Assembly: GCF_904846285.1 (NCBI RefSeq)
Contig: NZ_CAJHAD010000017.1
Location: 1 to 64,000 of the forward strand
Direction of reading: 5' to 3'
DNA: 64,000 bases
Source: Psychrobacter immobilis
Lineage (GTDB): Bacteria > Pseudomonadota > Gammaproteobacteria > Pseudomonadales > Moraxellaceae
Part shown: piece after piece, positions 6,813 through 64,000 of the stretch
How positions within the stretch are numbered: position 1 is the first letter of the stretch
Layout: each line of letters starts with the position of its first letter
Notes under the pieces: generated by a model
Database searches by the model: none
The model's input: only the letters and a program-made list of their open reading frames with translations
Told to the model about the DNA's origin: nothing
Translations under genes and position numbers: made by a program

Positions 6813-8315
6813 ATGCAATATTTTCGACACTCTGATATGTATAGTGCATTGGCTTTTATAGTAAGCTGTAGCGCTATGAACTTGCAAGCTGCTGAACCAT
6901 CAACAGTGCCACTAGCCCCACAAGACAACTCCATTGAAACAATTAATAAGTTAATCAATCAATCGCGCCCAGATGAATTTGAAAGACTGCCAACAGATTT
7001 GCCTTCAGATGATTCTGGCCCAAAGATGAGTAAAGAAGAAAGCAAAGCTTATTTAAAAGCTAATCCTGCTGAGTTTGAGAAATTATTAAGTAATATGCTC
7101 AGACAAGCCAATGCTGAGTCATTAGAGGAATTACTCCCAGTTTATCAACAAGTACCTAATTATGATCCTTCAGTGATAGACTGGGGTAATGCTATTATCG
7201 CTGCAAAAAAAGGTAAGTTAGATGAAGCGGTAACTATGTATCGTAAGGTGAATGCGCAGTTACCTGAAGTTCAGATTTTAAGATTTCAGTTGGCCATGGC
7301 TCTGTACTACAACCGGCAATTTGATGCTGCACAGTCGGAGTTTGAAGCATTGCGTAGTGAAGCGCCTACTGAAGATGATGTAAAAGTTATTAATAACTAT
7401 CTAAATGCTATTAACGCTCAAGACCGTTGGAGTTTTAATGGTTCAGTATCGTATATGGACGATAGTAATATCACTAACTCACCAGAGCAAGGTACACAGA
7501 TCGTTAGACCTGATGGCTCAGTTCTTACTTACACATCGCCTAGAGAGTCAGGGAAAGGTTTTAACTTTAATGCAAGTGGTGATAGAAAATGGTTGTATGA
7601 CAACAAGATATTTACCACTGTTAACTTAAATAGCTATGGTAAATACTACTGGGATAATAAAGACTATAATGATGTCACTGCTGGTATCGGCGCTGGTATT
7701 GGCTATCAGAATGCTGTTACAGAAGTGGAGATTGGTCCATTTTATAACAAACGCTGGTATGCGCAAGGTAAAAGCGGCGATGGTGGTTTACAGAGCTATG
7801 CAGATACTACGGGGATAAAGCTTAGCGCTAATCAATGGCTTAGTCCAAAGCTACGGTATCAGGGTTTGGCACGCTACGCTAAATCAAGCTATATAGATAA
7901 GTATGAATTTAATGATGGTGAAGACTGGCTGTTAGCAAATACCGCAGTTTATCTGCCAAATGGTCAGCAATTTTGGACATTTGGTGTTGATTATTCTACT
8001 CGAGATTCTGAAGATGATTCCTTAGCTTATGACCGTCCAGGTGTCAGAGTAGGTTGGGGTCAAACATGGCCAAAAGGTTATACTACAAGATTAGATCTTG
8101 GTTACGCAGAGCGTAATTATGATGGTGCAGACTTCTTTGGTATTCAACGTGAAAACAAAGAATACAGTGCGGGTATTACCGCATGGAATAGAGGTTTCTC
8201 TTTCTTGGGTCTGACACCGAGATTAAGTTGGAACTATAATAAAGTAACCAGTAATTCACCTTTTGAAGAATATGATAAAAATGATGTTTCAGTCGAATTG
8301 ACTAAAGCATTCTAA
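6813..8315 (+). CDS. Slam, surface lipoprotein assembly modulator (DUF560)
   Basis: Outer-membrane protein that moves lipoproteins to the cell surface. Seen: an N-terminal hydrophobic segment that looks like a signal peptide (cleavage near residue 27, after 'LQAA'), a TPR-like helical region (about residues 95-200, 'AIIAAKKGKLDEAVTMYRKV'), then a C-terminal beta-barrel. The barrel opens with 'WSFNGSVSYMDDSNITNSP', the usual DUF560 entry, and ends in aromatic residues ('VSVELTKAF'). At 500 residues it is full length. The gene follows its presumed substrate by 95 bp with a hairpin between. M9 is an alternative start that would give a more typical signal peptide. Confidence 0.85.
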   Translation: MQYFRHSDMYSALAFIVSCSAMNLQAAEPSTVPLAPQDNSIETINKLINQSRPDEFERLPTDLPSDDSGPKMSKEESKAYLKANPAEFEKLLSNMLRQANAESLEELLPVYQQVPNYDPSVIDWGNAIIAAKKGKLDEAVTMYRKVNAQLPEVQILRFQLAMALYYNRQFDAAQSEFEALRSEAPTEDDVKVINNYLNAINAQDRWSFNGSVSYMDDSNITNSPEQGTQIVRPDGSVLTYTSPRESGKGFNFNASGDRKWLYDNKIFTTVNLNSYGKYYWDNKDYNDVTAGIGAGIGYQNAVTEVEIGPFYNKRWYAQGKSGDGGLQSYADTTGIKLSANQWLSPKLRYQGLARYAKSSYIDKYEFNDGEDWLLANTAVYLPNGQQFWTFGVDYSTRDSEDDSLAYDRPGVRVGWGQTWPKGYTTRLDLGYAERNYDGADFFGIQRENKEYSAGITAWNRGFSFLGLTPRLSWNYNKVTSNSPFEEYDKNDVSVELTKAF

Positions 8316-8349
8316 TTTTATTATTCATATATATAAGAGATATTAACTT

Positions 8350-9624
8350 ATGCGCCGTTCGCTACCCATTGTTATAGGATTGCGCTTTACTCGTTCAGAA
8401 AATGCTAATAAGTTTTTATCTTTTATCTCATCGGTATCTATGGCAGGTCTAATACTTGGCGTTGCTGCATTAATTGTGGTGACGTCAGTCTTAAATGGTT
8501 TTGAAGAAGCGTTATCTAAAAAAATATTAGGAATGGTGCCACAGGCGGCGGTCTATTCGTCATTTCCCTTAGATGATTGGAAGCCGTTTGCGCAAGCCAT
8601 AGAAAAAAACGATAGCAATGTAGTAGGGACCGCACCTTTTGTGCAGGCTCGAGGTATGTTGTCGCTAAATGGTGATGTAAATAGCACCATCATAAACGGT
8701 ATAGAGCCAACTTCTCATGCTAAGGTATCTATTCTTAAACAAAGCATGGTAGCGGGTGATTTTGAAAGTTTAAATGCTGGTGCTAATAATATTATCCTCG
8801 GCAAATATGTCGTCGATAAATATGCTTTAAAGCTCGGTGATGAAGTTGGAATTATAATCTCTAAACCTTCTAATTCTACAGTCGGTATCACACCTACTTT
8901 TCATACTTATACGCTTACGGGCGTATTTCATGTCAGCCAAGAGATAGAGAAGTGGATGAGTTATATCGCCATGGATGATGCTTCTGATGCGGTAGGCTTA
9001 AATCACGGTGCGACTGGTATTCGTCTAAATTTAAAAGATGTTTTTACCTCTCAGGACTCAGCTAAGCAAGCATTAACTAGTGTTTCTACCCAAGCTTCTA
9101 CTCTCCAAGATGTTCAAAAAGACGTTACTTTTTCTAGTGGAGACTGGACGCAGACCCATGGCAGTTTATATACTTCTATTCGTATGCAAAAAACCATGAT
9201 GTCGTTACTTCTATTTCTCATTATTTTAGTTGCAGCATTTAACGTTATTTCAACATTAGTGATGAGCGTTACAGAAAAAAGATCAGATGTGGCGATACTA
9301 AAAACTTTTGGAGCGTCATCAAGTCTTATTTCCCGAATATTTATCGTTCAGGGGACTGTTATTGGCGTATTAGGTGTGCTTATTGGTTTAGCCTTAGGTA
9401 TTGTACTGTCGCTTAGCATTCCTAGTGTGTCAGCTTGGATCAATGTCACTTTTGATTTAGGGCTTTTTGATAATTACTTTGTGGAGTCATTACCTTCCAA
9501 AATTAAACTCATAGATATACTGCTTATCTTAATATCTTCTTTAGTTGTCGTTTTATTATCTACTCTATATCCGTCATACAGTGCTGCTAAAATTGAACCT
9601 GTACAAGCATTAAAAGGTGAATAA
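8350..9624 (+). CDS. LolC/LolE-family lipoprotein-releasing permease (orphan)
   Basis: Inner-membrane permease of the type that, with the ATPase LolD, extracts mature lipoproteins for transfer to LolA. Seen: the N-terminal 'GLRFTRSENANKFLSFISSVSMAGL' region typical of LolC/LolE, a first TM at about 27-50, a large periplasmic domain, and three C-terminal TMs (about 275-300, 325-350, 383-405) with the FtsX core and the ending 'YPSYSAAKIEPVQALKGE'. 424 residues, normal. It begins 34 bp after the Slam gene, same strand. There is no lolD next to it. It may be the only Lol permease (a LolF-like hybrid is used in related genera) with lolD elsewhere, or a copy dedicated to the surface lipoprotein; the window cannot decide. 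Confidence 0.88.
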   Translation: MRRSLPIVIGLRFTRSENANKFLSFISSVSMAGLILGVAALIVVTSVLNGFEEALSKKILGMVPQAAVYSSFPLDDWKPFAQAIEKNDSNVVGTAPFVQARGMLSLNGDVNSTIINGIEPTSHAKVSILKQSMVAGDFESLNAGANNIILGKYVVDKYALKLGDEVGIIISKPSNSTVGITPTFHTYTLTGVFHVSQEIEKWMSYIAMDDASDAVGLNHGATGIRLNLKDVFTSQDSAKQALTSVSTQASTLQDVQKDVTFSSGDWTQTHGSLYTSIRMQKTMMSLLLFLIILVAAFNVISTLVMSVTEKRSDVAILKTFGASSSLISRIFIVQGTVIGVLGVLIGLALGIVLSLSIPSVSAWINVTFDLGLFDNYFVESLPSKIKLIDILLILISSLVVVLLSTLYPSYSAAKIEPVQALKGE

Positions 9625-53034: not shown

Positions 53035-54582
53035 ATGCCAACCAGCGCACCTAATAGTATTAACCAAATCAATCAAGACGATATCAATAAAGCGGTCTGG
53101 AACGCCTGTGATACTTTTAACGGGGTCATCAGTCCAGATACTTATAAAGACTTTATCTTAACCATGCTATTTCTCAAGTATTTGTCTGATGTCTATCGCG
53201 ATGAGTACAACAAGCTGGTTGAGCAGTTTGGCGGCTCTGGCAATGAGAATCCTGAACTAATCACCGCGATGATGTCGAAGCAGCGTTTTGTATTGCCTGA
53301 TGGCGCAAGCTTTTGGGACTTGTACGAGCAGCGTCATCAGCCGGGTAACGGTCAACGTATTGATGAAGCGCTTCATGCTATTGAAGAAGCTAACGGTACT
53401 AAGCTCAAAAACGTCTTCCAAGATATCAGCTATAACACCGATAGATTGGGTCCAGAAAAGCAAAAAAACGAGCTACTACGCCATTTATTAGAAGACTTTG
53501 GCAAAGACATCCTCAATCTAAGTGCTGAGCGCGTGGGTAGCTTGGATGTGATTGGTAATGCTTACGAGTATTTAATTAAACACTTTGCTGCCAATGCTGG
53601 CGCAAAAGCAGGTGAGTTCTATACGCCGCCTGAGGTATCGAATTTACTAGCGACTATCCTTGAGCCTGTTGAGGGCGATGAAATCTGTGATCCAGCCTGC
53701 GGTTCAGGGTCGCTGCTCATTAAGTGCGGGGCGATGGTACGCAAAAACTCAAACTCTAAAAAGTATGCGCTATACGGTCAAGAAGCCATTGGCTCGACAT
53801 GGGCACTGGCCAAAATGAATATGTTCCTACACGGTGAGGATAACCACCGTATCGAGTGGGGCGATACCATCCGTAATCCGCTGCTACTTGATAAGGACGG
53901 CAAGCAATTATTACAGTTCGATGTGGTGACCGCCAACCCGCCGTTTTCATTGGATAAATGGGGTCATGAAGATGCCAGTAGCGATCCCTATGGGCGCTTC
54001 CATCGCGGTGTCCCGCCCAAGACCAAGGGCGACTATGCCTTTATCAGTCATATGGTCGAAACGCTCAAACCTAGCACTGGCAGAATGGGTGTGGTCGTAC
54101 CGCATGGCGTGCTATTCCGTGCGTCAAGTGAAGGCAAAATCCGTCAGCAACTCATCGAAGAAAACTTGCTCGATACGGTGATTGGCTTACCAGCTAACTT
54201 ATTCTTTGGAACGGGAATACCAGCCGCTATTTTGCTGTTTAAAAAGAATAAAACCGATGACAAAGTTCTGTTTATTGACGCTAGCAATGAGTTTAAATCA
54301 GGTAAAAACCAAAACCAGCTCACCGATAGCAATATCGCTAAAGTCATTGAGACTTATAAAACACGAGAAAGCGTCGATAAATATGCGTATCTAGCGAGCT
54401 TTGATGAAATTAAAGAAAACGACTTTAACCTAAACATTCCACGCTATGTCGATACCTTTGAAGAAGAGGTGGAGATCGATTTAGAGGCGGTTCGTGCTGA
54501 GCGTTTGGCGCTTAAAGCCGAGTTAAACCTGTTAGAGGATGAGATGGCAGGGTTTTTACAGGAGTTGGGTTATGGTGCCTAA
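53035..54582 (+). CDS. hsdM: type I restriction-modification system, DNA methyltransferase subunit
   Basis: 515 residues, N6-adenine methyltransferase. Seen: the N-terminal helical HsdM domain ('DDINKAVWNACDTFNGVISPDTYKDFILTMLFLKYLSD', residues about 11-48), 'GAKAGEFYTPPEVSNLLA', SAM motif I 'DPACGSGSLL' (about residue 220) and catalytic motif IV 'NPPFSLDKW' (about residue 301). Then 'GDYAFISHMVETLKP', 'VVPHGVLFRASSEG' and the helical tail. First gene of the operon; its stop overlaps hsdS by 11 bp. Confidence 0.97.
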   Translation: MPTSAPNSINQINQDDINKAVWNACDTFNGVISPDTYKDFILTMLFLKYLSDVYRDEYNKLVEQFGGSGNENPELITAMMSKQRFVLPDGASFWDLYEQRHQPGNGQRIDEALHAIEEANGTKLKNVFQDISYNTDRLGPEKQKNELLRHLLEDFGKDILNLSAERVGSLDVIGNAYEYLIKHFAANAGAKAGEFYTPPEVSNLLATILEPVEGDEICDPACGSGSLLIKCGAMVRKNSNSKKYALYGQEAIGSTWALAKMNMFLHGEDNHRIEWGDTIRNPLLLDKDGKQLLQFDVVTANPPFSLDKWGHEDASSDPYGRFHRGVPPKTKGDYAFISHMVETLKPSTGRMGVVVPHGVLFRASSEGKIRQQLIEENLLDTVIGLPANLFFGTGIPAAILLFKKNKTDDKVLFIDASNEFKSGKNQNQLTDSNIAKVIETYKTRESVDKYAYLASFDEIKENDFNLNIPRYVDTFEEEVEIDLEAVRAERLALKAELNLLEDEMAGFLQELGYGA

Positions 54583-55801
54583 GGGTTGGAAGGATGGTCG
54601 AGTAGAAGACTTATTAAATGGTTTAGAATCTGGTGTAAGTGTAAACGGTGAAGATCGACAATTACTAGATGGTGAGAAAGGTGTTTTAAGAGTTAGCGCA
54701 GTTACTTACGGAACATTTGACCCAAGTGCCGTTAAAGTCATTGAAAGACAAGATGAGCTTGATAGAGCAAAAATTAATCCTAAAAAATCTCAAATTATAA
54801 TTAGTAGAAGCAACACAGAAAGTTTAGTAGGAGCTAGTGCTTATATAAACTTTGATTATCCTGAATTATTTTTACCCGATAAATTATGGCAGACTATTCC
54901 AAAACCTGATGCCAATATGAAATGGTTAAGCTACGTATTGTCATCTGAACCAGTTAGATATACGTTATCGAATTTAGCCACTGGTACAAGTGGCTCAATG
55001 AAAAACATTACTAAAGGTGAATTCCTTAGCCTTAAAATTGCTATTCCACCTCTCCCAGAACAAAAAAAAATCGCCAAAATCCTATCGACTTGGGATAAAG
55101 CGATTAGCACCACTGAGCGTTTGATTGACAATAGTACCCAGCAGAAAAAGGCGTTGATGCAGCAATTGCTGACGGGTAAAAAGCGTTTGCTTGATGAGTC
55201 GGGGAAAAGGTTTGAGGGTGAGTGGGAAGAGGTTAAGTTATCAGAAATAGCCCAAATCACAATGGGTTCTTCTCCAAAATCTGATGCCTATAATGATATG
55301 GGGGACGGTCTGCCTTTGCTCCAAGGTAATGCAGATATTAAAAATAGAAAATCAGCACCAAGAATCTATACGTCACAAATAACTAAAGAATGTCACGTTG
55401 ATGATATTTTATTTAGTGTAAGAGCACCAGTTGGTACAGTTGCACTATCCAATCATAATGCTTGTATTGGACGTGGTATTGCTGCCATAAAAGCTAAGAA
55501 AAACCACTCTCAAGATTACTTATATCAGTGGCTTTTATCTTTTGAGCTGAAGTGGGAACGCTATTCGCAAGGTAGTACTTTTGAAGCGGTAAATAGCGAT
55601 GATATTAAATCGTTAAATCTTTCTATTCCAAACTATAAAGAACAACAAAAAATCGCCACCGTATTAACCAATGCTGATAAAGAAATTGAGTTGCTTGAGC
55701 AGCAATTGGCGGATTTACAGCAAGAGAAAAAGGCGCTGACGCAGCAGTTATTGACGGGTAAAAAGCGGGTGGTAATTGATGGGGCGGTTGCTGGATCTTG
55801 A
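54572..55801 (+). CDS. hsdS: type I restriction-modification system, specificity subunit
   Basis: About 409 residues. Two target-recognition domains (about residues 1-155 and 215-345), each followed by a conserved helical region: 'LPEQKKIAKILSTWDKAISTTE' with 'QQKKALMQQLLTGKKRLL' and 'EQQKIATVLTNADKEIELLEQQ' with 'EKKALTQQLLTGKKRV'. The repeat of 'QQLLTGKKR' marks the two spacer helices that set the distance between half-sites. The first recognition domain ('VPKGWKDGRVEDLLNG') is AT-rich compared with hsdM. The ATG at 54572 ('MVPKGW') follows CAGGAG inside the end of hsdM. Target sequence cannot be predicted here. Confidence 0.95.
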   Translation: MVPKGWKDGRVEDLLNGLESGVSVNGEDRQLLDGEKGVLRVSAVTYGTFDPSAVKVIERQDELDRAKINPKKSQIIISRSNTESLVGASAYINFDYPELFLPDKLWQTIPKPDANMKWLSYVLSSEPVRYTLSNLATGTSGSMKNITKGEFLSLKIAIPPLPEQKKIAKILSTWDKAISTTERLIDNSTQQKKALMQQLLTGKKRLLDESGKRFEGEWEEVKLSEIAQITMGSSPKSDAYNDMGDGLPLLQGNADIKNRKSAPRIYTSQITKECHVDDILFSVRAPVGTVALSNHNACIGRGIAAIKAKKNHSQDYLYQWLLSFELKWERYSQGSTFEAVNSDDIKSLNLSIPNYKEQQKIATVLTNADKEIELLEQQLADLQQEKKALTQQLLTGKKRVVIDGAVAGS

Positions 55802-55828
55802 GTAGGCTGGGTTAAAAACCCAGCCTAC
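55802..55828. repeat. palindromic repeat just after hsdS
   Basis: GTAGGCTGGGT and ACCCAGCCTAC are perfect 11-bp arms around a 5-nt A/T loop, 1 bp after the hsdS stop. It could double as a terminator. A degraded relative lies at 58708-58755. Confidence 0.75.
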
Positions 55829-55914: not shown

Positions 55915-56391
55915 ATGACTGTCTTACGTCGCCTATTTCTAAGCTCACTTCTGATCGTATCTGCGGGCTATGCAGCAGCCACTGAGTATAGTGAAGATGC
56001 CGATGACTATCAGGATCAAACCACGACTCGGGTTTATCCTTACTATCAGCTACCGCTCACTGACAAGGACTTCCGTCAGTATGACGACTCAATCGATATC
56101 GACCAACTGCCTATCACCGATCCCAAACTTCTAGAGCAGCTTGCCACACTGCAGCAAGGGGCCTCGGATAGTGGTTTTTTTCAACTACAGGCAGGAGGGG
56201 GCTATCAAGCATTTGTATCGTTTGGCTTATACGAAGATGAAGGCGACGCCTATGTCACCGAAGACAATCCTGACGGCGCCTATGTCGATCAAGAGAATGT
56301 ATTGGTCTTGCTCAAAAACCAAAAATTGTTAATCGTCACGTTGGATAAGGGTTTTAGAATTGATAAGAATTTCAACGTTACTTACGACTAG
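55915..56391 (+). CDS. predicted periplasmic protein of unknown function
   Basis: 158 residues with a Sec signal peptide ('RLFLSSLLIVSAGYAAA', cleavage near residue 22). The mature part is acidic and Asp/Tyr-rich ('YSEDADDYQDQTTTRVYPYYQLPLTD') and ends in a small beta domain ('VLVLLKNQKLLIVTLDKGFRI'). I do not recognise the family. It lies between hsdS and a decayed copy of the hsdS 3' end, so it came in by a recombination event. A secreted protein is unlikely to be part of the restriction system. Confidence 0.65.
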   Translation: MTVLRRLFLSSLLIVSAGYAAATEYSEDADDYQDQTTTRVYPYYQLPLTDKDFRQYDDSIDIDQLPITDPKLLEQLATLQQGASDSGFFQLQAGGGYQAFVSFGLYEDEGDAYVTEDNPDGAYVDQENVLVLLKNQKLLIVTLDKGFRIDKNFNVTYD

Positions 56392-56553: not shown

Positions 56554-57270
56554 CTAAACGACGTGTAGATAAGCGTCAATAAAATACTCATAGACATACT
56601 TTTCTTCGAACAATGTCATAACTACTCTAGAGCCGCCTCTTTCCCAGTATAGTATTTGCCATTCATTAGGGTTTACTTGTTGCACCGTTTCGCAATCATT
56701 AGCCGTTTTTGGATCGCCCCATGACCATGTATTTATACTTGAAGTATCCATGTAAGGATATAGGATTGTTTTATCAAAGGTGCTTTCAATGAGCCTTACC
56801 CTATTTATAAACGCTTCAAAGCTATTTAACGGCATTATCATGATTTGCATTGCCAAGTTTATTTGCGTAGCGGTTTCATATTGACGATCATGATAAATAT
56901 CTGAAACGCCTAATTCAGGTAAGGGCTGTTCATTATCTCGAAAATGGTCAAGAAAAATTTGTAGTAAGAAAAATCCACTCGTATAAGTAGAGATTTTACT
57001 GACCGCGTGCTCGTTTATGCGACAGATGTAAAACGGTTCCTTTATTTTTACGGACGCTATACCATCCTTGATCGGTATACCAAAAGCGCCCACTCGCTCA
57101 AAATCGATAGGGTAGTTTTTAAAGAATAAGTTATTGTGTATATTCTCACTGTTTTGTAATAAGTATTTTTTATCTTTAACGGCTTCAATGACTTTAACGG
57201 CTTCCAAAGGCATGTCTTGTTTTTTTCGCTCATTAAGCCTTGCTTTGATACTATTCCAGAAGCTTATCAT
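56554..57270 (-). CDS. unrecognised cytoplasmic protein in the defence island
   Basis: 238 residues, no signal peptide. Seen: a basic N-terminus ('NSIKARLNERKKQD'), 'YPIDFERVGAFGIPIKDGIASVKI', an aromatic-rich middle ('TYTSGFFLLQIFLDHF') and a C-terminus with 'NEWQILYWERGGSRVVMTLFEEKYVYEYFIDAY'. I cannot place it in a family. It runs opposite to the restriction operon. Confidence 0.6.
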   Translation of the reverse strand: MISFWNSIKARLNERKKQDMPLEAVKVIEAVKDKKYLLQNSENIHNNLFFKNYPIDFERVGAFGIPIKDGIASVKIKEPFYICRINEHAVSKISTYTSGFFLLQIFLDHFRDNEQPLPELGVSDIYHDRQYETATQINLAMQIMIMPLNSFEAFINRVRLIESTFDKTILYPYMDTSSINTWSWGDPKTANDCETVQQVNPNEWQILYWERGGSRVVMTLFEEKYVYEYFIDAYLHVV

Positions 57271-57383: not shown

Positions 57384-57833
57384 TTGCACACTAAATATAA
57401 AATCTTAAAAGTATTACTGCTCTGGCTATTAAAATTCTTTGTACCACCTTTGGTAGGCGCTATATTTTTGGCGGTAATTAATTATATATCGACTTTTGAT
57501 ACCGTACTTTGGGGCTATGCGACGTTACTTGAGAACATAAGAATATCTATAATACTATTAGTAGGCACTATAGTTACCTTTTACGTTTATTATGTATTGG
57601 CTTACCTCGTATTCTTCTTATATCTGATTGTTTTGGAAAAAATAAAGAAACTTAGCTTAGTAATCGTGATGGTCAGTGGTTTTATTTACGGACTGATACC
57701 ACTTCTATTTGACCATAAAAGCCTAGAGTCAATTTTGATAGTGGTCGTTATCGCCATCAGCGGCGCGATGTGTGCGGCTTGCTATTACTATTTGGATAAG
57801 AGATTTAGATCGTTATATTTAGCAAAAAATTAG
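57384..57833 (+). CDS. small multi-pass membrane protein, unknown
   Basis: 149 residues with four likely membrane segments (about 8-30, 50-70, 72-88 and 93-135, the last long enough for two). Starts with TTG; AGGA lies about 11 nt upstream. No motif recognised. A 9-bp hairpin (TAGAGCATC/GATGCTCTA, 57831-57868) overlaps its end. Confidence 0.55.
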   Translation: MHTKYKILKVLLLWLLKFFVPPLVGAIFLAVINYISTFDTVLWGYATLLENIRISIILLVGTIVTFYVYYVLAYLVFFLYLIVLEKIKKLSLVIVMVSGFIYGLIPLLFDHKSLESILIVVVIAISGAMCAACYYYLDKRFRSLYLAKN

Positions 57834-57913: not shown

Positions 57914-58660
57914 TTAATTCGTCTGCTTCTTTAAGATAAGGTCTATATTCTTATCTTCTAACATAGAAGGCATATTCATTTTGCCATCTAAGATGTCGCC
58001 TGCTTGATTAATCTCATAACAAGTCTTCACGACAGTCTCTTCTCCTGCTGACTGGTCCGAATATTCAAAGGTATCGCACAGCCAAGCCGTGTCGGACGTG
58101 GCTTTGGTCAATGACCATGACGATTTGATGTTATCAAAAATATTGTTATAAGTAGCTTTTGGGATATAGTTTTGCGATGCGCCAAGCTTGGCATATTTTG
58201 GTATCGGTTTAGATTTGCTGACTATGGTATCTATCTCATAGTCTTCATTGATAAGGTATAAGTAGATCTGTAGAGGATTTGAGGAATAATAATGCTCCTT
58301 TGGGAAATAAATATTCGGTGCATCCCCTAATTTGTAGATATTTTGAATCTTAGCAGATTTAACCGCTTTGCCGTCGAGCTCAGTATCTCCGGTTTTCACT
58401 GTTTTAAGTCGCAGTTCATGAGCGTCCTCCGGATTTACGGACACGAAGGTAAAGTCCACGTCTTCCATTAATTTAATCAGCACTGATGCCACAGGGTATT
58501 GACCTTTTGCTATCGCGCTTTTATCAGCTTTGCTGATTGACGCAACGTCATCACCAACGGCTGAGTGGGCTTTGTTTTGGCTATGAGCCGTACCCTCTAT
58601 GGCCGCCAAAGCAAAACTACTCGAAAACAATAGGGTAAACCCTAACCATAATTTCAACAT
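57914..58660 (-). CDS. predicted exported protein of unknown function
   Basis: 248 residues with a clear signal peptide ('MLKLWLGFTLLFSSSFALAAIEG', cleavage near residue 19). The mature part contains two Cys ('TAWLCDTFEYS', 'VVKTCYEIN') that may pair, and the rest is Lys/Asp-rich. I do not recognise the family. It ends the cargo stretch before the ATPase gene and is on the opposite strand to the restriction operon. Confidence 0.65.
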   Translation of the reverse strand: MLKLWLGFTLLFSSSFALAAIEGTAHSQNKAHSAVGDDVASISKADKSAIAKGQYPVASVLIKLMEDVDFTFVSVNPEDAHELRLKTVKTGDTELDGKAVKSAKIQNIYKLGDAPNIYFPKEHYYSSNPLQIYLYLINEDYEIDTIVSKSKPIPKYAKLGASQNYIPKATYNNIFDNIKSSWSLTKATSDTAWLCDTFEYSDQSAGEETVVKTCYEINQAGDILDGKMNMPSMLEDKNIDLILKKQTN

Positions 58661-59035
58661 AATTATCCTAAGCTTAGTAGAGCTATTAAAAATTCATTAT
58701 ACAGAGCGTAGGCTCGGCTTTTAAATCTGAAAAGCGTTAAAAATCCAGCCTATACAAATAGATATTAACGAGCATAACGGCTACGTCCTTTGGGTAACGT
58801 GCAACGGTGGCGGTTTTTTGTTACCTTTTTTATATAGTCGATACACTTCAAAGTTGTTATACCAGTAGGGTATTTAAACCTATATAACAGTTTTATTTTC
58901 AGCTGAATAGTGGTATCAGACGAAATGCGACTATCTATAGCGATTGCTAACGACTCACTGCTATACTGACTCAATATAGTTTGACCCTTTATCGATAAAT
59001 CCTGCAAATGTAAAGCGTAAATCTTGGACATAAAA
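58661..59035. other. divergent intergenic region before the ATPase gene
   Basis: About 375 bp. It holds the degenerate repeat at 58708-58755 and a GGTAAC...GTTACC pair (58793-58798 and 58820-58825) followed by T's. A minus-strand open frame across it overlaps the ATPase gene and has no family features. The promoter for the ATPase should lie here, but I see no clear boxes. Confidence 0.45.
58708..58755. repeat. degenerate relative of the palindromic repeat at 55802
   Basis: GTAGGCTCGGCTTTTAA (58708-58724) and TTAAAAATCCAGCCTATAC (58737-58755) are imperfect inverted arms of the same GTAGGCTGG/CCAGCCTAC type, with a larger loop. Confidence 0.5.
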
Positions 59036-60514
59036 ATGGAAATAAAAAAGTTAACGCTAAGTAATTTAGGACGTTTTGAGAACCTTGAAGTAGACTTTGC
59101 CCCGAGTGAGGATAACCAGTCGAATGTTACCGTGTTTATTGGTAATAACGGCGCAGGTAAGACGTCAATACTAGAAGCATTAGCGACTTCCTTAAGTTGG
59201 TTCGTCGCGCGTGTGCGTAGCGAAAAGGGCAACGGTCATGCTATCAATGAACTAGCTGTTATTGATGATGCGCCAGCTGCCAGTATCACTTTGAAGTTAT
59301 CTGATGATATTAAAACCGATAGCGAAGTCGCGCTTTTATCGTATCAATGGACGTTAGTTAAAGCACGGAAGGGTCGCAAGAGTGACAAGCCTAGTAATCT
59401 TAGTGAATTAACTAAACTTGCAGATAACTATCGCCAATTATTAACAGATGATGCTAACACAAGCTTACCTCTGATTGCTTATTATCCTGTCGAGCGTTCA
59501 GTCCTTGATATTCCTTTAAAAATTATGGGCAAACACAGCTTTACTCAGATAGAGGGCTACGAGAGTGCTTTGAATCAAGGCGTAGACTTTCGACGCTTCT
59601 TTGAATGGTTTCGTGAGCGTGAAGATATTGAGAATGAGGAACAAAGTAGAAGAATGGAGTTTTTTCTAGATAATGACTCAAATATCCTGGATAAAATGAA
59701 AATGTTACTTGATGATTATGCCAGTAATGATAATAAAAGAAAGCAGGACGGTGTAGAGGTTATAAAAGATAGTGGCGTAGAATCTATAACAATAAACGTA
59801 AAACATGTATTTGATGAAATAGAACGTATTAAAAGTTCGGAGTTTCGTCTTCAAGACAAACAACTAAACGCGGTTCGAACCGCGATAACAGCTTTTATGC
59901 CAGATTTAAGCAATATCAGAGTACAACGCAAACCTCGTCTACATATGGCTGTTGATAAAAATGGTCGATCACTAAATGTTCTACAACTGTCGCAAGGTGA
60001 GAAGTCTTTAATGGCCTTAGTAGGCGATATCGCCAGACGTTTAGCTATGATGAATCCTGCGCTAGATAGTCCTCTACATGGCGATGGCATTATCTTGATA
60101 GATGAAGTGGATATGCACTTGCATCCTAGTTGGCAGCGCAATCTGGTGCAACGTTTTACCGATACCTTTCCTAACTGCCAAATCGTCCTAAGTACCCATT
60201 CGCCTTTAGTCATTAGCGACCAAAAGGACATTTTAGTCTACTTGTTAAATGATGGAGATATCACCGCATTGCCACCTTTATATGGTGAAGACGTTAATAC
60301 TGTCTTACTAGAAGCAATGGATACCGACATTCGTGATCATGATATTACCGAAAAGCTTGGCAATCTATTAGATGCCATACAGGATGCTGATATTGTCACT
60401 GCTAAGATCCTGCTGAAAAAGTTAGAAAATGAGTTGCCGTCAGGAAATATGGAGCTTGCCAAAGCAAGATTGCTACTTCGTAAAAAGGAGTTACAACTTG
60501 CGAAAAATAACTAA
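59036..60514 (+). CDS. ptuA: AAA/ABC-type ATPase, probable Septu PtuA
   Basis: 492 residues from the ATG at 59036. Seen: SMC/RecF-like N-terminus 'KKLTLSNLGRFENLEVDF', Walker A 'FIGNNGAGKTS' (about residues 34-44), signature 'QLSQGEKSLMALVGDIARRLAM' (about 318), Walker B 'GIILIDEVDMHLHPSWQRNL' (about 352) and the switch His in 'VLSTHSPLVI' (about 386). No TOPRIM domain, so it is not an OLD-type nuclease. It overlaps the HNH gene by 17 bp. An ATPase directly followed by an HNH nuclease is the layout of Septu anti-phage systems. There is no reverse transcriptase, so it is not the retron version. A TTG at 59024 is an alternative start. Confidence 0.75.
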   Translation: MEIKKLTLSNLGRFENLEVDFAPSEDNQSNVTVFIGNNGAGKTSILEALATSLSWFVARVRSEKGNGHAINELAVIDDAPAASITLKLSDDIKTDSEVALLSYQWTLVKARKGRKSDKPSNLSELTKLADNYRQLLTDDANTSLPLIAYYPVERSVLDIPLKIMGKHSFTQIEGYESALNQGVDFRRFFEWFREREDIENEEQSRRMEFFLDNDSNILDKMKMLLDDYASNDNKRKQDGVEVIKDSGVESITINVKHVFDEIERIKSSEFRLQDKQLNAVRTAITAFMPDLSNIRVQRKPRLHMAVDKNGRSLNVLQLSQGEKSLMALVGDIARRLAMMNPALDSPLHGDGIILIDEVDMHLHPSWQRNLVQRFTDTFPNCQIVLSTHSPLVISDQKDILVYLLNDGDITALPPLYGEDVNTVLLEAMDTDIRDHDITEKLGNLLDAIQDADIVTAKILLKKLENELPSGNMELAKARLLLRKKELQLAKNN

Positions 60515-61130
60515 GCAAGTAGGTTTCGAACCACAAAGTTTGACGAGTTGGAAAAAGAGAATAAATAATAAAGACAAGGACTATCTTGGTTTAACTAGCA
60601 CTGAAAAAGATGATATTCGCTCCGCTTGTGCAATGGAACAGTTTTATTTATGTGCTTATTGTTGTAAGCCAATCTCTGGAGCAATTAAAGATTGTATGAA
60701 TGAGCATGTTGTTGCTAGAGATATAGCTCCTAATAGAAGCCTTGATTTCGATAATATAGTAGCAAGCTGTATAACGCCTAATCAATGTGATAGCGCACAT
60801 GGTTCGCAGCCATTACCGCTTACGCCTTTTGACATTGAATGTGAGACAGACTTAACCTTTAAGTTGAGCGGTAGAGTAGAAGGTAAAACTGCCGATGCCA
60901 AAGAAACTATCCGTGTTTTGAATTTAGGTAATAACAATAAATCTTTGGTCGAGCAAAGAAGACAGTTTGTACAAGCCTTATTGTTAGGCGATGGTATTGA
61001 CCCTGACGATGTCATAGATGATAGCGATTTAATTCAAATGGTCATTGATGATTTATCAAAACCAAAAAATGGCAAACTTGAAGCGTTTGCACCAATTGCA
61101 ATAAATGTTTTGAGTCAATGGGTAGCTTAA
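60498..61130 (+). CDS. ptuB: HNH endonuclease, probable Septu PtuB
   Basis: 210 residues from a TTG at 60498. Seen: 'FYLCAYCCKPIS' (Cys52, Cys55), 'NEHVVARDIA' (His70), 'LDFDNIVASC' (Asn86, Cys91), 'NQC' (Cys97) and His101, which fit a zinc-bound HNH fold with the H-N-H residues in order. 'QRRQFVQALLLGD' is a helical tail typical of PtuB-like proteins. The start is decided by AAGGAG 8 nt upstream of the TTG, inside the end of ptuA; an earlier ATG at 60429 lacks such a site. The last base of its stop is the first base of the hsdR ATG (TAATG). Confidence 0.75.
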   Translation: MRKITKQVGFEPQSLTSWKKRINNKDKDYLGLTSTEKDDIRSACAMEQFYLCAYCCKPISGAIKDCMNEHVVARDIAPNRSLDFDNIVASCITPNQCDSAHGSQPLPLTPFDIECETDLTFKLSGRVEGKTADAKETIRVLNLGNNNKSLVEQRRQFVQALLLGDGIDPDDVIDDSDLIQMVIDDLSKPKNGKLEAFAPIAINVLSQWVA

Positions 61131-64000
61131 TGTCTGAAAATAACTATTCAACGCTGAACTTCCAAGAAGAATTTGCCTCAAAAATCCCTGCCTTAACACT
61201 GCTTACTACGCTAGGCTATCAGTTTATTCCACCAAGTGAATGCAACACCATGCGTAGCAGTAAGTTGCTAGCGAATCAAGCGAATGCTAACAAAGCCACC
61301 AACCAAGTGGTGTTATTACCTATCATGCGTGCGTTTTTAGCCAAGCAAACCTTTACGTTTGAAGGCAAGCCACATCATTTATCAGATAGCGCCTTTGATA
61401 AGATCATGCACGAGCTCAACCCAGCGATGAACTTAGGCTTGCAACTTGCCAATGAAACCCTCTATAACGCTATGCTCTATGGCGTGACGGTGACCGAGTT
61501 TATCGATGGCAAAAGAACTTCCCAAACCATCAGCTTGATAGATTGGAATCATATCGATAATAATAGCTTCCACTTTACCGAAGAGCTGGTAGTACAGAAT
61601 GCTGAAGGGACAGGTAATATCATTCCTGATATCGTCTGCTTTGTAAACGGTCTACCGCTAGCAGTGATTGAAGCCAAACGTCCTGATTCGAGTAGAGAGT
61701 GGCAGTCAACCAACGTGCAAGCCGTCTCTCAGCACATTCGTAACCAAGGTCAAAAACAAATCCCGCATCTATTTGCCTATAGCCAGTTATTGCTTGCGGT
61801 GAATGGGCATGACGGTCTGTATGGCACCTGCGGTACGCCTGAAAAGTTTTGGGCAAAATGGGTCGAAGAAGAGATCTCTGAGCCTGAGTTTAATCGTCTA
61901 AAAAATCAAGCACTCAGTCCTGAGCAGATTGAGAATCTGTTTGCTCATCGTCCTACCTCTGCTAAAAAAGAATACCTGTCGCTCATTAGTTCAGGCGAGC
62001 TGGTCGTTACCGATCAAGACCGCCTTATCATTAGCTTATTGCAGCCTGAGCGTTTGCTTGAGATGACGCGCATGTTTACCTTGTTTGATAAAAAGGCGGG
62101 CAAAATCGTTGCCCGTTATCAGCAAGTCTTTGGTATCAAAGCTCTGATTGAACGAATCAGTACCTTTGACGAGAAGGGCGGTCGTGAGGGTGGAGTGATT
62201 TGGCATACCACCGGCAGTGGTAAATCTTTCACGATGGTGTTTTTCTCTAAGGCGCTTATTTGGTTAGAGGAGCTCGCAAAGTGCCGTGTTATTGTCGTCA
62301 CCGACCGTGTTGATCTTGAAACTCAGCTTAGTCAAACCTTTGCGTCAGGCGGCGTACTTAGTGATCGTGATAAAACGGAGGCGATGGCAACCTCTGGTCG
62401 CCGCTTAGCGCAGCAAATAGGTCATGGTAATGAGCGGGTTATATTCTCCATTATTAACAAGTTTGGCTCAGCCGTTAAGTATGAGGAATGCTATAACGAC
62501 AGCCCAAATATCATCGTCATGGTCGATGAAGGTCACCGCAGCCAAAACGGTGAGAATAATATCCGCATGAGCCAGGCTCTGCCAAATGCTGCCTTTATTG
62601 CCTTTACTGGTACGCCACTCCTAAAAGACGATAAGACTGAAAACAAATTCGGTAGCATCATTCACTCTTACACCATGCAGCAAGCGGTCAAAGACAAAAC
62701 CGTTACGCCACTGTTATATGAAGAGCGTATCCCTGAGCTCAATACCAATGACCAAGCCATTGATGCGTGGTTTGACCGTATTACCCAAAAGCTCACCGAT
62801 GATCAAAAATCTGATCTTAAACGTAAGTTTTCTCAGAAAGGTCAAATCTATCAGGTTGAGGGTCGTATCGAGCTGATTGCTCATGATATCTCTGATCATT
62901 TTCAAAACTTTAAACAGCAGCATCTAAAGGGTCAATTGGCTTGTGATTCTAAAGCCTCCGCTATTCGCTATAAGATCGCTTTAGATAAGATTGGCAAAGT
63001 GACCTCTGTGGTTGCTATGTCACCACCTGATACCCGTGAGGGGCATGACACCGTCGATGGCGAATCAAAAGACATCGTCCAAAACTGGTGGCAAGATAAT
63101 GTCGCCAGTCAGTATGGCGGTGATGAAAAAGCGTACACCAAAGCCATTATAGAAGCCTTTAGTACTGATGATGGCCCCGATATTATGATCGTCGTTGATA
63201 AGCTCTTGACTGGTTTTGATGAACCAAAGAACACCGTTCTTTATATCGATAAGCCACTAAAGCAGCATAACCTGATTCAAGCGATTGCGCGGGTGAACCG
63301 CTTGCACGAGAAAAAACGTTTTGGTTATCTAATTGATTATCGGGGCATCTTAAAAGAGCTGGATATTACTATTGAGAAGTACCAAGATTTAGCGGAACGT
63401 ACGCAAGGCGGCTTTGATATCGAAGACCTTAAAGGTCTGTATAACGCTATGGACACTGAGTACAAGCAACTACCAAGGCTACATAATGAGCTGTGGGCGA
63501 TCTTCTCATCAGTAAAAAACAAGCAAGACGGTCAAGCGCTAAGACAAGTGCTAGCGCCAAAGATGCAGGAAGTAGACGGGAGAGTAGTCGATACCAAGCT
63601 TAAAGCGCGTGACGACTTTTATGCTGCCTTGACCGAGTTTTCTAACGCCATGAAGATTGCGTTGCAATCGGCATCTTTCTTTGCAGATAAATCTTTTGAT
63701 AGCAAGCGTGATCGCTACAAGGCCGATCTAAAAGCCTTTATTAATCTACGCAAGCAAGTGCGCGAAGATGCTGATGAGACCATTGATTATGATGAGTACG
63801 AAGCAGATATTCGCAGCTTACTCGACAAGCATATTGCGGGGCTTGAGGTTAAAGAGGCGAAAGGGGCTTACTTGGTCGGCAATTTAGGCAAGGATGTTAA
63901 GCCTGAAGAATTAAGTGATGATGAAGCCCGTAACCAAACCGATAAAATTACAGGTCGTGTTACTAAGATGATTGAGCAAGATTTGGCTGATGATCCGTAT
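61130..64000 (+). CDS. hsdR: type I restriction-modification system, restriction subunit (runs off the window)
   Basis: 957 codons are visible and no stop is reached, so the gene is cut by the window edge. Seen: N-terminal 'STLNFQEEFASKIPALTLLTTLGYQF', a PD-(D/E)xK nuclease with 'PDIVCFVNGLPLAVIEAKRP' (about residues 165-184), Walker A 'WHTTGSGKSFTMVFF' (about residue 360), the DEAD-box-type 'VDEGHRSQ' (about residue 466), 'AFTGTPL', and a later helicase motif 'DKLLTGFDEPKNTVLYIDKPL'. The ATG overlaps the ptuB stop (TAATG), so it is probably translated by re-initiation after ptuB. Confidence 0.95.
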   Translation, partial: MSENNYSTLNFQEEFASKIPALTLLTTLGYQFIPPSECNTMRSSKLLANQANANKATNQVVLLPIMRAFLAKQTFTFEGKPHHLSDSAFDKIMHELNPAMNLGLQLANETLYNAMLYGVTVTEFIDGKRTSQTISLIDWNHIDNNSFHFTEELVVQNAEGTGNIIPDIVCFVNGLPLAVIEAKRPDSSREWQSTNVQAVSQHIRNQGQKQIPHLFAYSQLLLAVNGHDGLYGTCGTPEKFWAKWVEEEISEPEFNRLKNQALSPEQIENLFAHRPTSAKKEYLSLISSGELVVTDQDRLIISLLQPERLLEMTRMFTLFDKKAGKIVARYQQVFGIKALIERISTFDEKGGREGGVIWHTTGSGKSFTMVFFSKALIWLEELAKCRVIVVTDRVDLETQLSQTFASGGVLSDRDKTEAMATSGRRLAQQIGHGNERVIFSIINKFGSAVKYEECYNDSPNIIVMVDEGHRSQNGENNIRMSQALPNAAFIAFTGTPLLKDDKTENKFGSIIHSYTMQQAVKDKTVTPLLYEERIPELNTNDQAIDAWFDRITQKLTDDQKSDLKRKFSQKGQIYQVEGRIELIAHDISDHFQNFKQQHLKGQLACDSKASAIRYKIALDKIGKVTSVVAMSPPDTREGHDTVDGESKDIVQNWWQDNVASQYGGDEKAYTKAIIEAFSTDDGPDIMIVVDKLLTGFDEPKNTVLYIDKPLKQHNLIQAIARVNRLHEKKRFGYLIDYRGILKELDITIEKYQDLAERTQGGFDIEDLKGLYNAMDTEYKQLPRLHNELWAIFSSVKNKQDGQALRQVLAPKMQEVDGRVVDTKLKARDDFYAALTEFSNAMKIALQSASFFADKSFDSKRDRYKADLKAFINLRKQVREDADETIDYDEYEADIRSLLDKHIAGLEVKEAKGAYLVGNLGKDVKPEELSDDEARNQTDKITGRVTKMIEQDLADDPY

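Follow-up and report, generated by a model that had tools for sequence, protein, structure and literature searches.

A 64,000-nt stretch of Psychrobacter immobilis DNA (contig NZ_CAJHAD010000017.1, positions 1 to 64,000, referred to here as the window) carries a two-gene module of the Septu defence type, ptuA-ptuB, immediately upstream of hsdR, the restriction subunit gene of a type I restriction-modification (RM) system (Table 1). The type I set of hsdM, hsdS and hsdR is present and unbroken, the full-length hsdR encoding 1116 aa with its stop beyond the window. An earlier note on this DNA, made from the sequence alone, had described ptuA-ptuB as lying between hsdS and hsdR on the same strand; gene order and strand are as described, but hsdS is not adjacent, being parted from ptuA by 3.2 kb that contain a terminator-like hairpin, placed at 58806-58825 by a scan, and four open reading frames (ORFs), two of which run on the minus strand. 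The coordinates and junction motifs given in the note were all confirmed from the sequence: the TTG start of ptuB at 60498 is preceded by AAGGAG at 60485-60490 with a spacing of 7 nt, ptuA and ptuB overlap by 17 nt, and the last A of the ptuB TAA is the first A of the hsdR ATG (61130), giving a 1-nt overlap of the form TAATG.

Table 1. Features of the type I locus in the window (coordinates on the forward strand)
Feature	Position	Strand	Basis and remarks
hsdM, type I methyltransferase subunit	53035..54582	+	PADLOC MTase_I 445 bits; Pfam N6_Mtase 355 bits; NCBIfam hsdM above cut-off
hsdS, specificity subunit	54539..55801	+	PADLOC Specificity_I 398 bits
158-aa ORF, slot cargo	55915..56391	+	no Pfam, NCBIfam or PADLOC match
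238-aa ORF, slot cargo	56554..57270	-	no Pfam, NCBIfam or PADLOC match
149-aa ORF, TTG start, slot cargo	57384..57833	+	no Pfam, NCBIfam or PADLOC match
248-aa ORF, slot cargo	57914..58660	-	no Pfam, NCBIfam or PADLOC match
Slot hairpin, terminator-like (stem, then T-run)	58762..58835	+	
Putative extended -10 (TGCTATACT) of ptuA-ptuB-hsdR	58959..58967	+	alignment, by eye
ptuA, predicted Septu ABC-type ATPase, 492 aa	59036..60514	+	ATG 59036, TAA 60512-60514
ptuB, predicted Septu HNH nuclease, 210 aa from TTG	60498..61130	+	TAA 61128-61130
hsdR, type I restriction subunit	61130..64000, on past window end	+	PADLOC REase_I 1158 bits; NCBIfam hsdR above cut-off

The family call of the earlier note holds when checked, PADLOC profiles returning Septu PtuA and PtuB and the predicted fold of PtuB agreeing. 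PtuA matches the PADLOC PtuA profile PDLC00271 with 522 bits (E 6e-157, residues 1-489) and retains its Walker A (GNNGAGKT), signature (LSQGE), Walker B (IILIDEVDMHLHP) and STHSP motifs. PtuB matches the PADLOC profile PDLC00344 with 273 bits, a Pfam scan of the protein giving no HNH match. The ten best Protein Data Bank (PDB) fold matches to its AlphaFold model (pLDDT 90.7, 28-row alignment) are all chains of Septu or retron I-A complexes, with TM-scores of 0.65-0.72 by query, rmsd of ~5 A and 17-21% identity, including 8eea chain G of the E. coli Septu complex at E 4.8e-7. All 45 rows of the PtuB alignment keep H70 and N86, which we take, from their position within the motif, to correspond to H75 and N91 of Septu EcB88, residues whose change abolished defence (PMC13096335). 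The machinery thus looks intact, as the motifs and both residues are kept. With the gene order, ptuA then ptuB, also as in Septu, the pair is, judged by profiles and a fold model, a complete Septu-type module of ABC ATPase and HNH nuclease; what sets it apart from Septu is its setting within a type I RM locus and its junction with hsdR.

The best PDB sequence match of PtuA is the retron Ec83 ATPase (E 2e-57), its top solved relatives being retron and Septu PtuA proteins; retron I-A systems (Ec78/Eco7, Ec83) supply the closest solved PtuA sequences and are among the top PtuB fold matches. A degraded retron I-A, in which the effectors PtuA and PtuB were left behind when reverse transcriptase and msr-msd were lost, could produce this likeness. 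However, no reverse transcriptase was detected by Pfam or NCBIfam among the window ORFs that separate hsdS from hsdR, to which that search was confined, and the NCBIfam retron Ec78 models score below their cut-offs for both PtuA (342 bits, cut-off 500) and PtuB (105, cut-off 150). A retron remnant was consequently rejected and is barely credible here.

Counting the arrangement elsewhere, as the earlier note had proposed, revealed that it is not unique to this genome and that the ptuB-hsdR overlap is conserved. PtuB matches occur in 14 of 105 Psychrobacter genomes, six of which contain ptuA-ptuB-hsdR loci (this genome, G090, G092, G095, G068 and G018) and seven stand-alone pairs with PtuB 33-39% identical; PtuB on named Psychrobacter contigs is 75-88% identical to that of the window. 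The same gene order and the 1-nt TAATG overlap are observed in all six unbroken Psychrobacter PtuAB loci (window, L023-L027), a contig edge cutting the start of ptuA in L025. Two plasmids of Enterobacter sp. MGH 14 (L118, L232) carry an hsdM-hsdS-ptuA-ptuB-hsdR run with 17-nt and 1-nt overlaps, and a third plasmid record (MGH 3) is among the matches listed. A ptuA-ptuB-hsdR order with a 27-nt gap is present in L103. In L110 and L112 the order recurs with 4-nt ATGA overlaps at both hsdS-ptuA and ptuB-hsdR; their HsdM and HsdR best match other type I profiles, and HsdR scores only 62-67 bits against that of the window. A divergent PtuAB is thus found at this position in a second, different type I family. 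The remaining Psychrobacter match (G059, Psychrobacter sp. 4Bb; L035, ~7357-8350) is a decayed ptuB-hsdR junction, in which a transposase frame (integrase core) is followed by the last quarter of ptuB and an apparent hsdR remnant. In the two MGH 14 records, which are from one strain, the unit has identical protein accessions and is preceded by Tn7-like transposition genes and a further, short hsdS.

RM linkage is nevertheless the minority state of PtuAB in this sample. Among 44 loci with both genes, hsdR stands beside ptuB in 10 and no hsd gene was detected in the fetched flanks of 33, as sought by phmmer with the window proteins at E 1e-3, a search which very divergent RM genes could escape; some contigs end less than 3 kb from the pair (e.g. 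L064, L107, L111). The one other locus, L106, has hsdS upstream and a contig that ends 35 bp past ptuB. The tally includes the broken pairs L064, L068 and L100; in L100 (G497), ptuA and ptuB lie in separate pieces across ~6 kb and are apparently broken. Relatives whose PtuB is 44-60% identical occur as stand-alone pairs, their fetched flanks having given no hsd gene. One of these, from E. coli (L151), is 57% and 50% identical to the window pair and retains the 17-nt overlap; in the two E. coli records read (L151, L152) the pair occupies the chromosomal smrB-yfcO site. A survey of 5426 E. coli genomes gave DNA similarity to the Enterobacter pair in 187, in no case across more than 80% of the query, and one listed row among those matches covers only 4% of it. 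A PtuA search of viral contigs gave two distant loci with no ptuB match, which were not used.

On a PtuA tree the embedded label requires five changes, at least three of them forced by well-supported branches, and no tree in 200 bootstraps allowed one change, so that a single origin of embedding was rejected; the label remains clustered, no shuffle out of 500 being as low. The set of 44 rows in the tree differs slightly from the tally of 44, E. coli L151 and L152 being added and the divergent Acinetobacter loci L067-L077 being represented by L067 and L069 in the tree and by L067, L068 and L069 in the tally, the rest having been dropped for want of a ptuB match with the query. The tree carries a long-branch warning, which includes L110 and L112, and L106 is labelled embedded; excluding L106, embedding arose at least twice in our own reading. 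Since several label changes are needed, embedding of PtuAB in RM loci probably happened more than once.

The earlier note had taken the overlaps to suggest that the nuclease pair and the restriction subunit are made together in a fixed ratio. Overlaps of 17 or 14 nt between ptuA and ptuB are also present in pairs without an hsd gene found nearby (from candidate starts in L104, L119, L102, L120 and L028-L034, and as annotated in E. coli L151), so that this overlap is a habit of PtuAB rather than of this RM operon and was dropped as proof of RM coupling. The visible coupling of ptuAB is to hsdR. Coupling across the whole type I operon is not supported, as minus-strand genes and the terminator-like hairpin part hsdS from ptuA, whereas coupled expression of ptuAB with hsdR is likely, given that the arrangement recurs and that the ptuB-hsdR overlap is conserved. 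A fixed ratio is likewise not supported, as overlaps do not set a ratio. The putative -10 upstream of ptuA is identical in L023 and L024.

The setting of the module became clearer from a survey of the interval between hsdS and hsdR (the slot) in Psychrobacter. This HsdR family is present in 46 of the 105 genomes, and 46 loci from 44 of them were compared, a set that leaves out G037 and G048, whose hsdR is broken, and a second, partial match in G022. The hsdS-hsdR gap, taken as far as the first hsdR ORF (in L177 a 78-aa 5' fragment), is at least 909 bp in all 39 measured loci, window included, a count that omits the 7 of 45 loci without hsdS in the stretch. PtuAB fills the slot in six of the 46 loci and other genes fill it in 40. 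The contents of the 45 loci other than the window form 57 clusters of ORFs of at least 90 aa, some of which are surely not genes; representatives of 20 clusters were scanned against Pfam and 10 proteins against PADLOC. The cargo named in this way comprises a Pycsar cyclase with membrane partner, a CBASS cyclase with SLATT effector, dCTP-deaminase-like and dGTPase-like proteins, Abi_2, an AbiZ-like protein, a KAP NTPase (PDC-S20), PDC-S26, PDC-S02, a DpnII-type nuclease, an ATPase nearest AriAB, a BLUF protein and a transposase. The BLUF (blue-light sensor) gene lies on the minus strand in six of 45 slots (L164, L176, L179-L182). The commonest cluster, a 226-aa ORF with no Pfam match, is found in 8 of 45 loci (L155, L159, L161, L162, L169, L181, L187, L189), with a hairpin ~127 nt upstream in six of the eight.

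In blastn comparisons with the window, the last similar piece before the slot stops at ~55762-55827, at the hsdS end, wherever hsdS was fetched, the exception being the 158-aa ORF in L160 and L164. In loci lacking PtuAB, similarity resumes only inside hsdR, at 61151-61166 (codons 8-13) in 31 of 40 and at 61291-61397 in the other nine, while PtuAB loci align straight through ptuB into hsdR; the first hsdR codons therefore seem to move with the cassette. The slot is an exchange site: hsdM, the hsdS ends, hsdR and at least part of the next gene are conserved and the contents differ wholesale from lineage to lineage. HsdR of L027 is 96% identical to that of L025 and L026, while PtuA is only 58-60% identical, and the HsdR closest to that of the window (L153, 95%) accompanies an Abi_2-type ORF. 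By these comparisons, HsdR and PtuA histories disagree and PtuAB lineages have been swapped among near-identical HsdR backgrounds.

Cargo is joined to hsdR in more than one way. The last cargo stop falls between 34 nt before and 10 nt inside the hsdR start in 23 of 46 loci, namely the six PtuAB loci (1-nt overlap) and 17 of the 40 others; a conserved hsdR leader is kept in 16, of which 15 have a TACAAT box; and seven fit neither class, as counted by hand. At the other end of the slot, the first cargo start, taking the nearest start codon, overlaps the hsdS stop in 18 of 40 loci, L118 included. In L155, L161, L162 and L169 the leader stands before the cargo instead, as if cargo had been inserted between leader and hsdR, and similar copies precede cargo in L179 and L181. 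In L177 (G104) the 78-aa hsdR fragment precedes further ORFs and a full hsdR, as if insertion may have copied the start of hsdR. If ptuAB and hsdR were mere neighbours, brought together at a hotspot for defence genes but unconnected in function or expression and with overlaps that are incidental, one would expect cargo as varied and unrelated as that observed, part of it on the minus strand, and the 16 loci with a separate hsdR leader. This is very unlikely, however, as the leader is absent from six of six PtuAB loci, all of which have the 1-nt overlap, and as seamless junctions of different type, TAATG and ATGA, occur in different RM families.

Related HsdR proteins were detected in 9 of 149 Acinetobacter genomes, and in eight of the nine loci (L193-L200) the gene before hsdR is not hsdS. 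The genes found there are a CBASS sensor-domain protein with a SLATT effector in L195 (ORFs of equal sizes in L196), an HD phosphohydrolase in L197, Abi_2 in L200 (an ORF of equal size in L198 and L199), RhuM in L194 and a HATPase-domain protein in L193. Several cargo types thus recur at one and the same position in two genera. In the ninth locus, L201 (42% identical), hsdR directly follows hsdS with a 4-nt overlap, which shows the form of an empty slot.

Combined, these results make it probable that an ordinary Septu module is carried as an exchangeable cassette in the hsdS-hsdR slot of a Psychrobacter type I system and is expressed with hsdR. In this explanation ptuA, ptuB and hsdR would be transcribed together from a promoter of their own downstream of the terminator-like hairpin, and the TAATG overlap would couple translation of ptuB and hsdR. 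PtuA and PtuB would, by analogy with their family, form a latent ATPase-nuclease complex which phage infection switches on and which may cut host tRNA or nicked DNA; Septu EcB88 and retron-Eco7 PtuAB cut tRNA-Tyr, and Septu of E. coli ATCC 25922 is reported to act on nicked DNA (PMC13096335, PMC11555353). Restriction would act first and PtuAB, translated from the same message as HsdR, would provide a second layer where phage gets through, the two systems sharing expression and mobility but not necessarily mechanism.

Several observations weigh against this explanation. The ptuA promoter was identified by eye, and a consensus scan gave no excess (25 against a shuffle mean of 23.5). The long hsdS-ptuA gap of the window, with its minus-strand genes, is looser than in L027, L118, L110 and L112, and for the majority of PtuAB loci (33/44) the fetched flanks gave no hsd gene. 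A tRNA or DNA target is extrapolated from distant relatives, the PtuB fold matches being 17-21% identical. Finally, the cargo is not all defence, as 5 of the 20 representatives scanned, out of 57 clusters, have no Pfam match.

A closer bond was considered in the earlier note, which raised joint action of the pair with restriction as a possibility. One form of this would be a guard arrangement, as for PrrC, in which PtuAB senses the assembled type I enzyme or is restrained by it, a phage that disables restriction frees PtuAB, and tRNA cleavage leads to abortive infection. PrrC is a single protein of a nuclease family other than that of PtuB. It is encoded in a type I operon and works in this way with EcoprrI (PMC3874165), and the tRNA-Tyr cleavage by the EcB88 and Eco7 proteins, the TAATG junction kept between Psychrobacter and Enterobacter and the embedding of PtuAB in a second type I family all fit such a model. 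It is nonetheless disfavoured because relatives stand alone (the E. coli pair L151, Paraburkholderia L120 and others); moreover, PtuAB lineages have been swapped between HsdR backgrounds and unrelated cargo ends about as near hsdR. We consider a guard role improbable. The joining of varied cargo to hsdR supports shared control and weakens the case for joint action.

Nesting of defence genes within defence systems is known case by case. PrrC in EcoprrI (type IC) resembles the present pair as a nuclease gene inside a type I operon; the PrrC protein is held by the RM enzyme. DarTG2 is a two-gene module in exactly this slot, between hsdS and hsdR of the RRDM island of enteropathogenic E. coli (EPEC), an island under RptR control, and the site has been considered a possible recombination hotspot for defence systems (PMC12255303). 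Similarly, TgvAB is a two-gene module embedded in the type I locus of V. cholerae VPI-2 and protected without HsdR nuclease activity (PMC11411939); both modules differ from PtuAB. Variable ORFs between hsdR and hsdS are described as the rlo genes (R-linked ORFs) in one Campylobacter species, and no slot-specific hairpin is mentioned in the portion of that report consulted (PMC5183652). Embedded systems, PrrC among them, are also described in Pseudomonas type I loci (PMC12629846), and the occurrence of Septu within Hma systems has been noted, citing Payne et al. 2024 and the PADLOC paper (PMC12255303). No earlier account of Septu inside a type I locus, or of the Psychrobacter slot, was present among the matches listed from titles and abstracts, a search that left most subscription journals and bioRxiv uncovered. 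What is added to the known cases (PrrC, DarTG2, TgvAB, rlo) is one restriction family in one genus, in 44 genomes, whose slot has taken up around twelve types of known or candidate defence that are unrelated to one another, together with PtuAB in another type I family, unrelated to the first, where the junctions are just as seamless. As the slot is comparable across genomes and PtuAB recurs in the second family, two questions become testable: whether shared expression with hsdR yields synergy, and how a cassette enters without damage to either gene.

The slot is further distinguished by a hairpin element of ~70 nt, which precedes ptuA in the window, L023 and L024 and elsewhere sits before the hsdR leader or between cassettes. 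An nhmmer search over 48 loci gave 37 matches, 36 of them at E <1e-5 and all on the plus strand; 36 lie beyond the window, in L023, L024 and loci of L153-L192, with a maximum of three per slot (L189). Wherever the stretch extends to hsdS, all matches fall between that gene and hsdR; in L024, L154, L180 and L182, which have no hsdS in the stretch, they are upstream of hsdR. The profile was built from 23 copies out of the very loci then scanned, and more weight is consequently given to a whole-genome search with the 24-nt core. The core occurs once in this genome and in 20 copies in 18 of 36 other Psychrobacter genomes; 19 of the 20 are upstream of hsdR on its contig and match nhmmer copies, one (G101, contig 13) being on a contig other than that of hsdR. 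It is absent from 6 of 24 genomes with this HsdR and from 12 of 12 without an HsdR match. By nhmmer the element was not found in L025, L026 and L027, all PtuAB carriers, so that PtuAB does not need it.

Compared with shuffled sequences the consensus hairpin folds better (z -2.3), unlike the copy in the window (z -0.1). The fold common to the copies is a stem of 8 pairs, showing one compensatory change, with T-runs after it. One end resembles an attC core box by eye. An integron cassette array, suggested by the likeness of the slot hairpins to cassette sites, was rejected, the integrase TIGR02249 scoring above cut-off in 1 of 30 genomes (G017) and not in this genome (G000); on this ground, and because the fold is a simple stem with T-runs, the element is read as terminator-like, a terminator being the plain reading. 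The slot hairpin, with a core found only in the slot bar one exception, is the part that is new to us. A more ambitious interpretation, which we regard as rather unlikely, is that the slot is a dedicated, always-filled site for defence cassettes, where the hairpin insulates cassettes transcriptionally and is the block at which cassettes such as PtuAB are exchanged, each cassette coming under hsdR control or replacing it; if true, the restriction enzyme would serve as a base which a lineage fits out anew with a second-line killer.

The remaining cargo of the window includes two ORFs with counterparts in other slots. Relatives of the 158-aa ORF found by phmmer occupy the same slot in L160 and L164, and the 149-aa ORF has a relative in the slot of L185. 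The N-terminus of the 248-aa ORF looks like a signal peptide when judged by eye. Downstream of hsdR lies a gene for a YgjP-like metallopeptidase, a place taken in Enterobacter by a gene annotated SprT.

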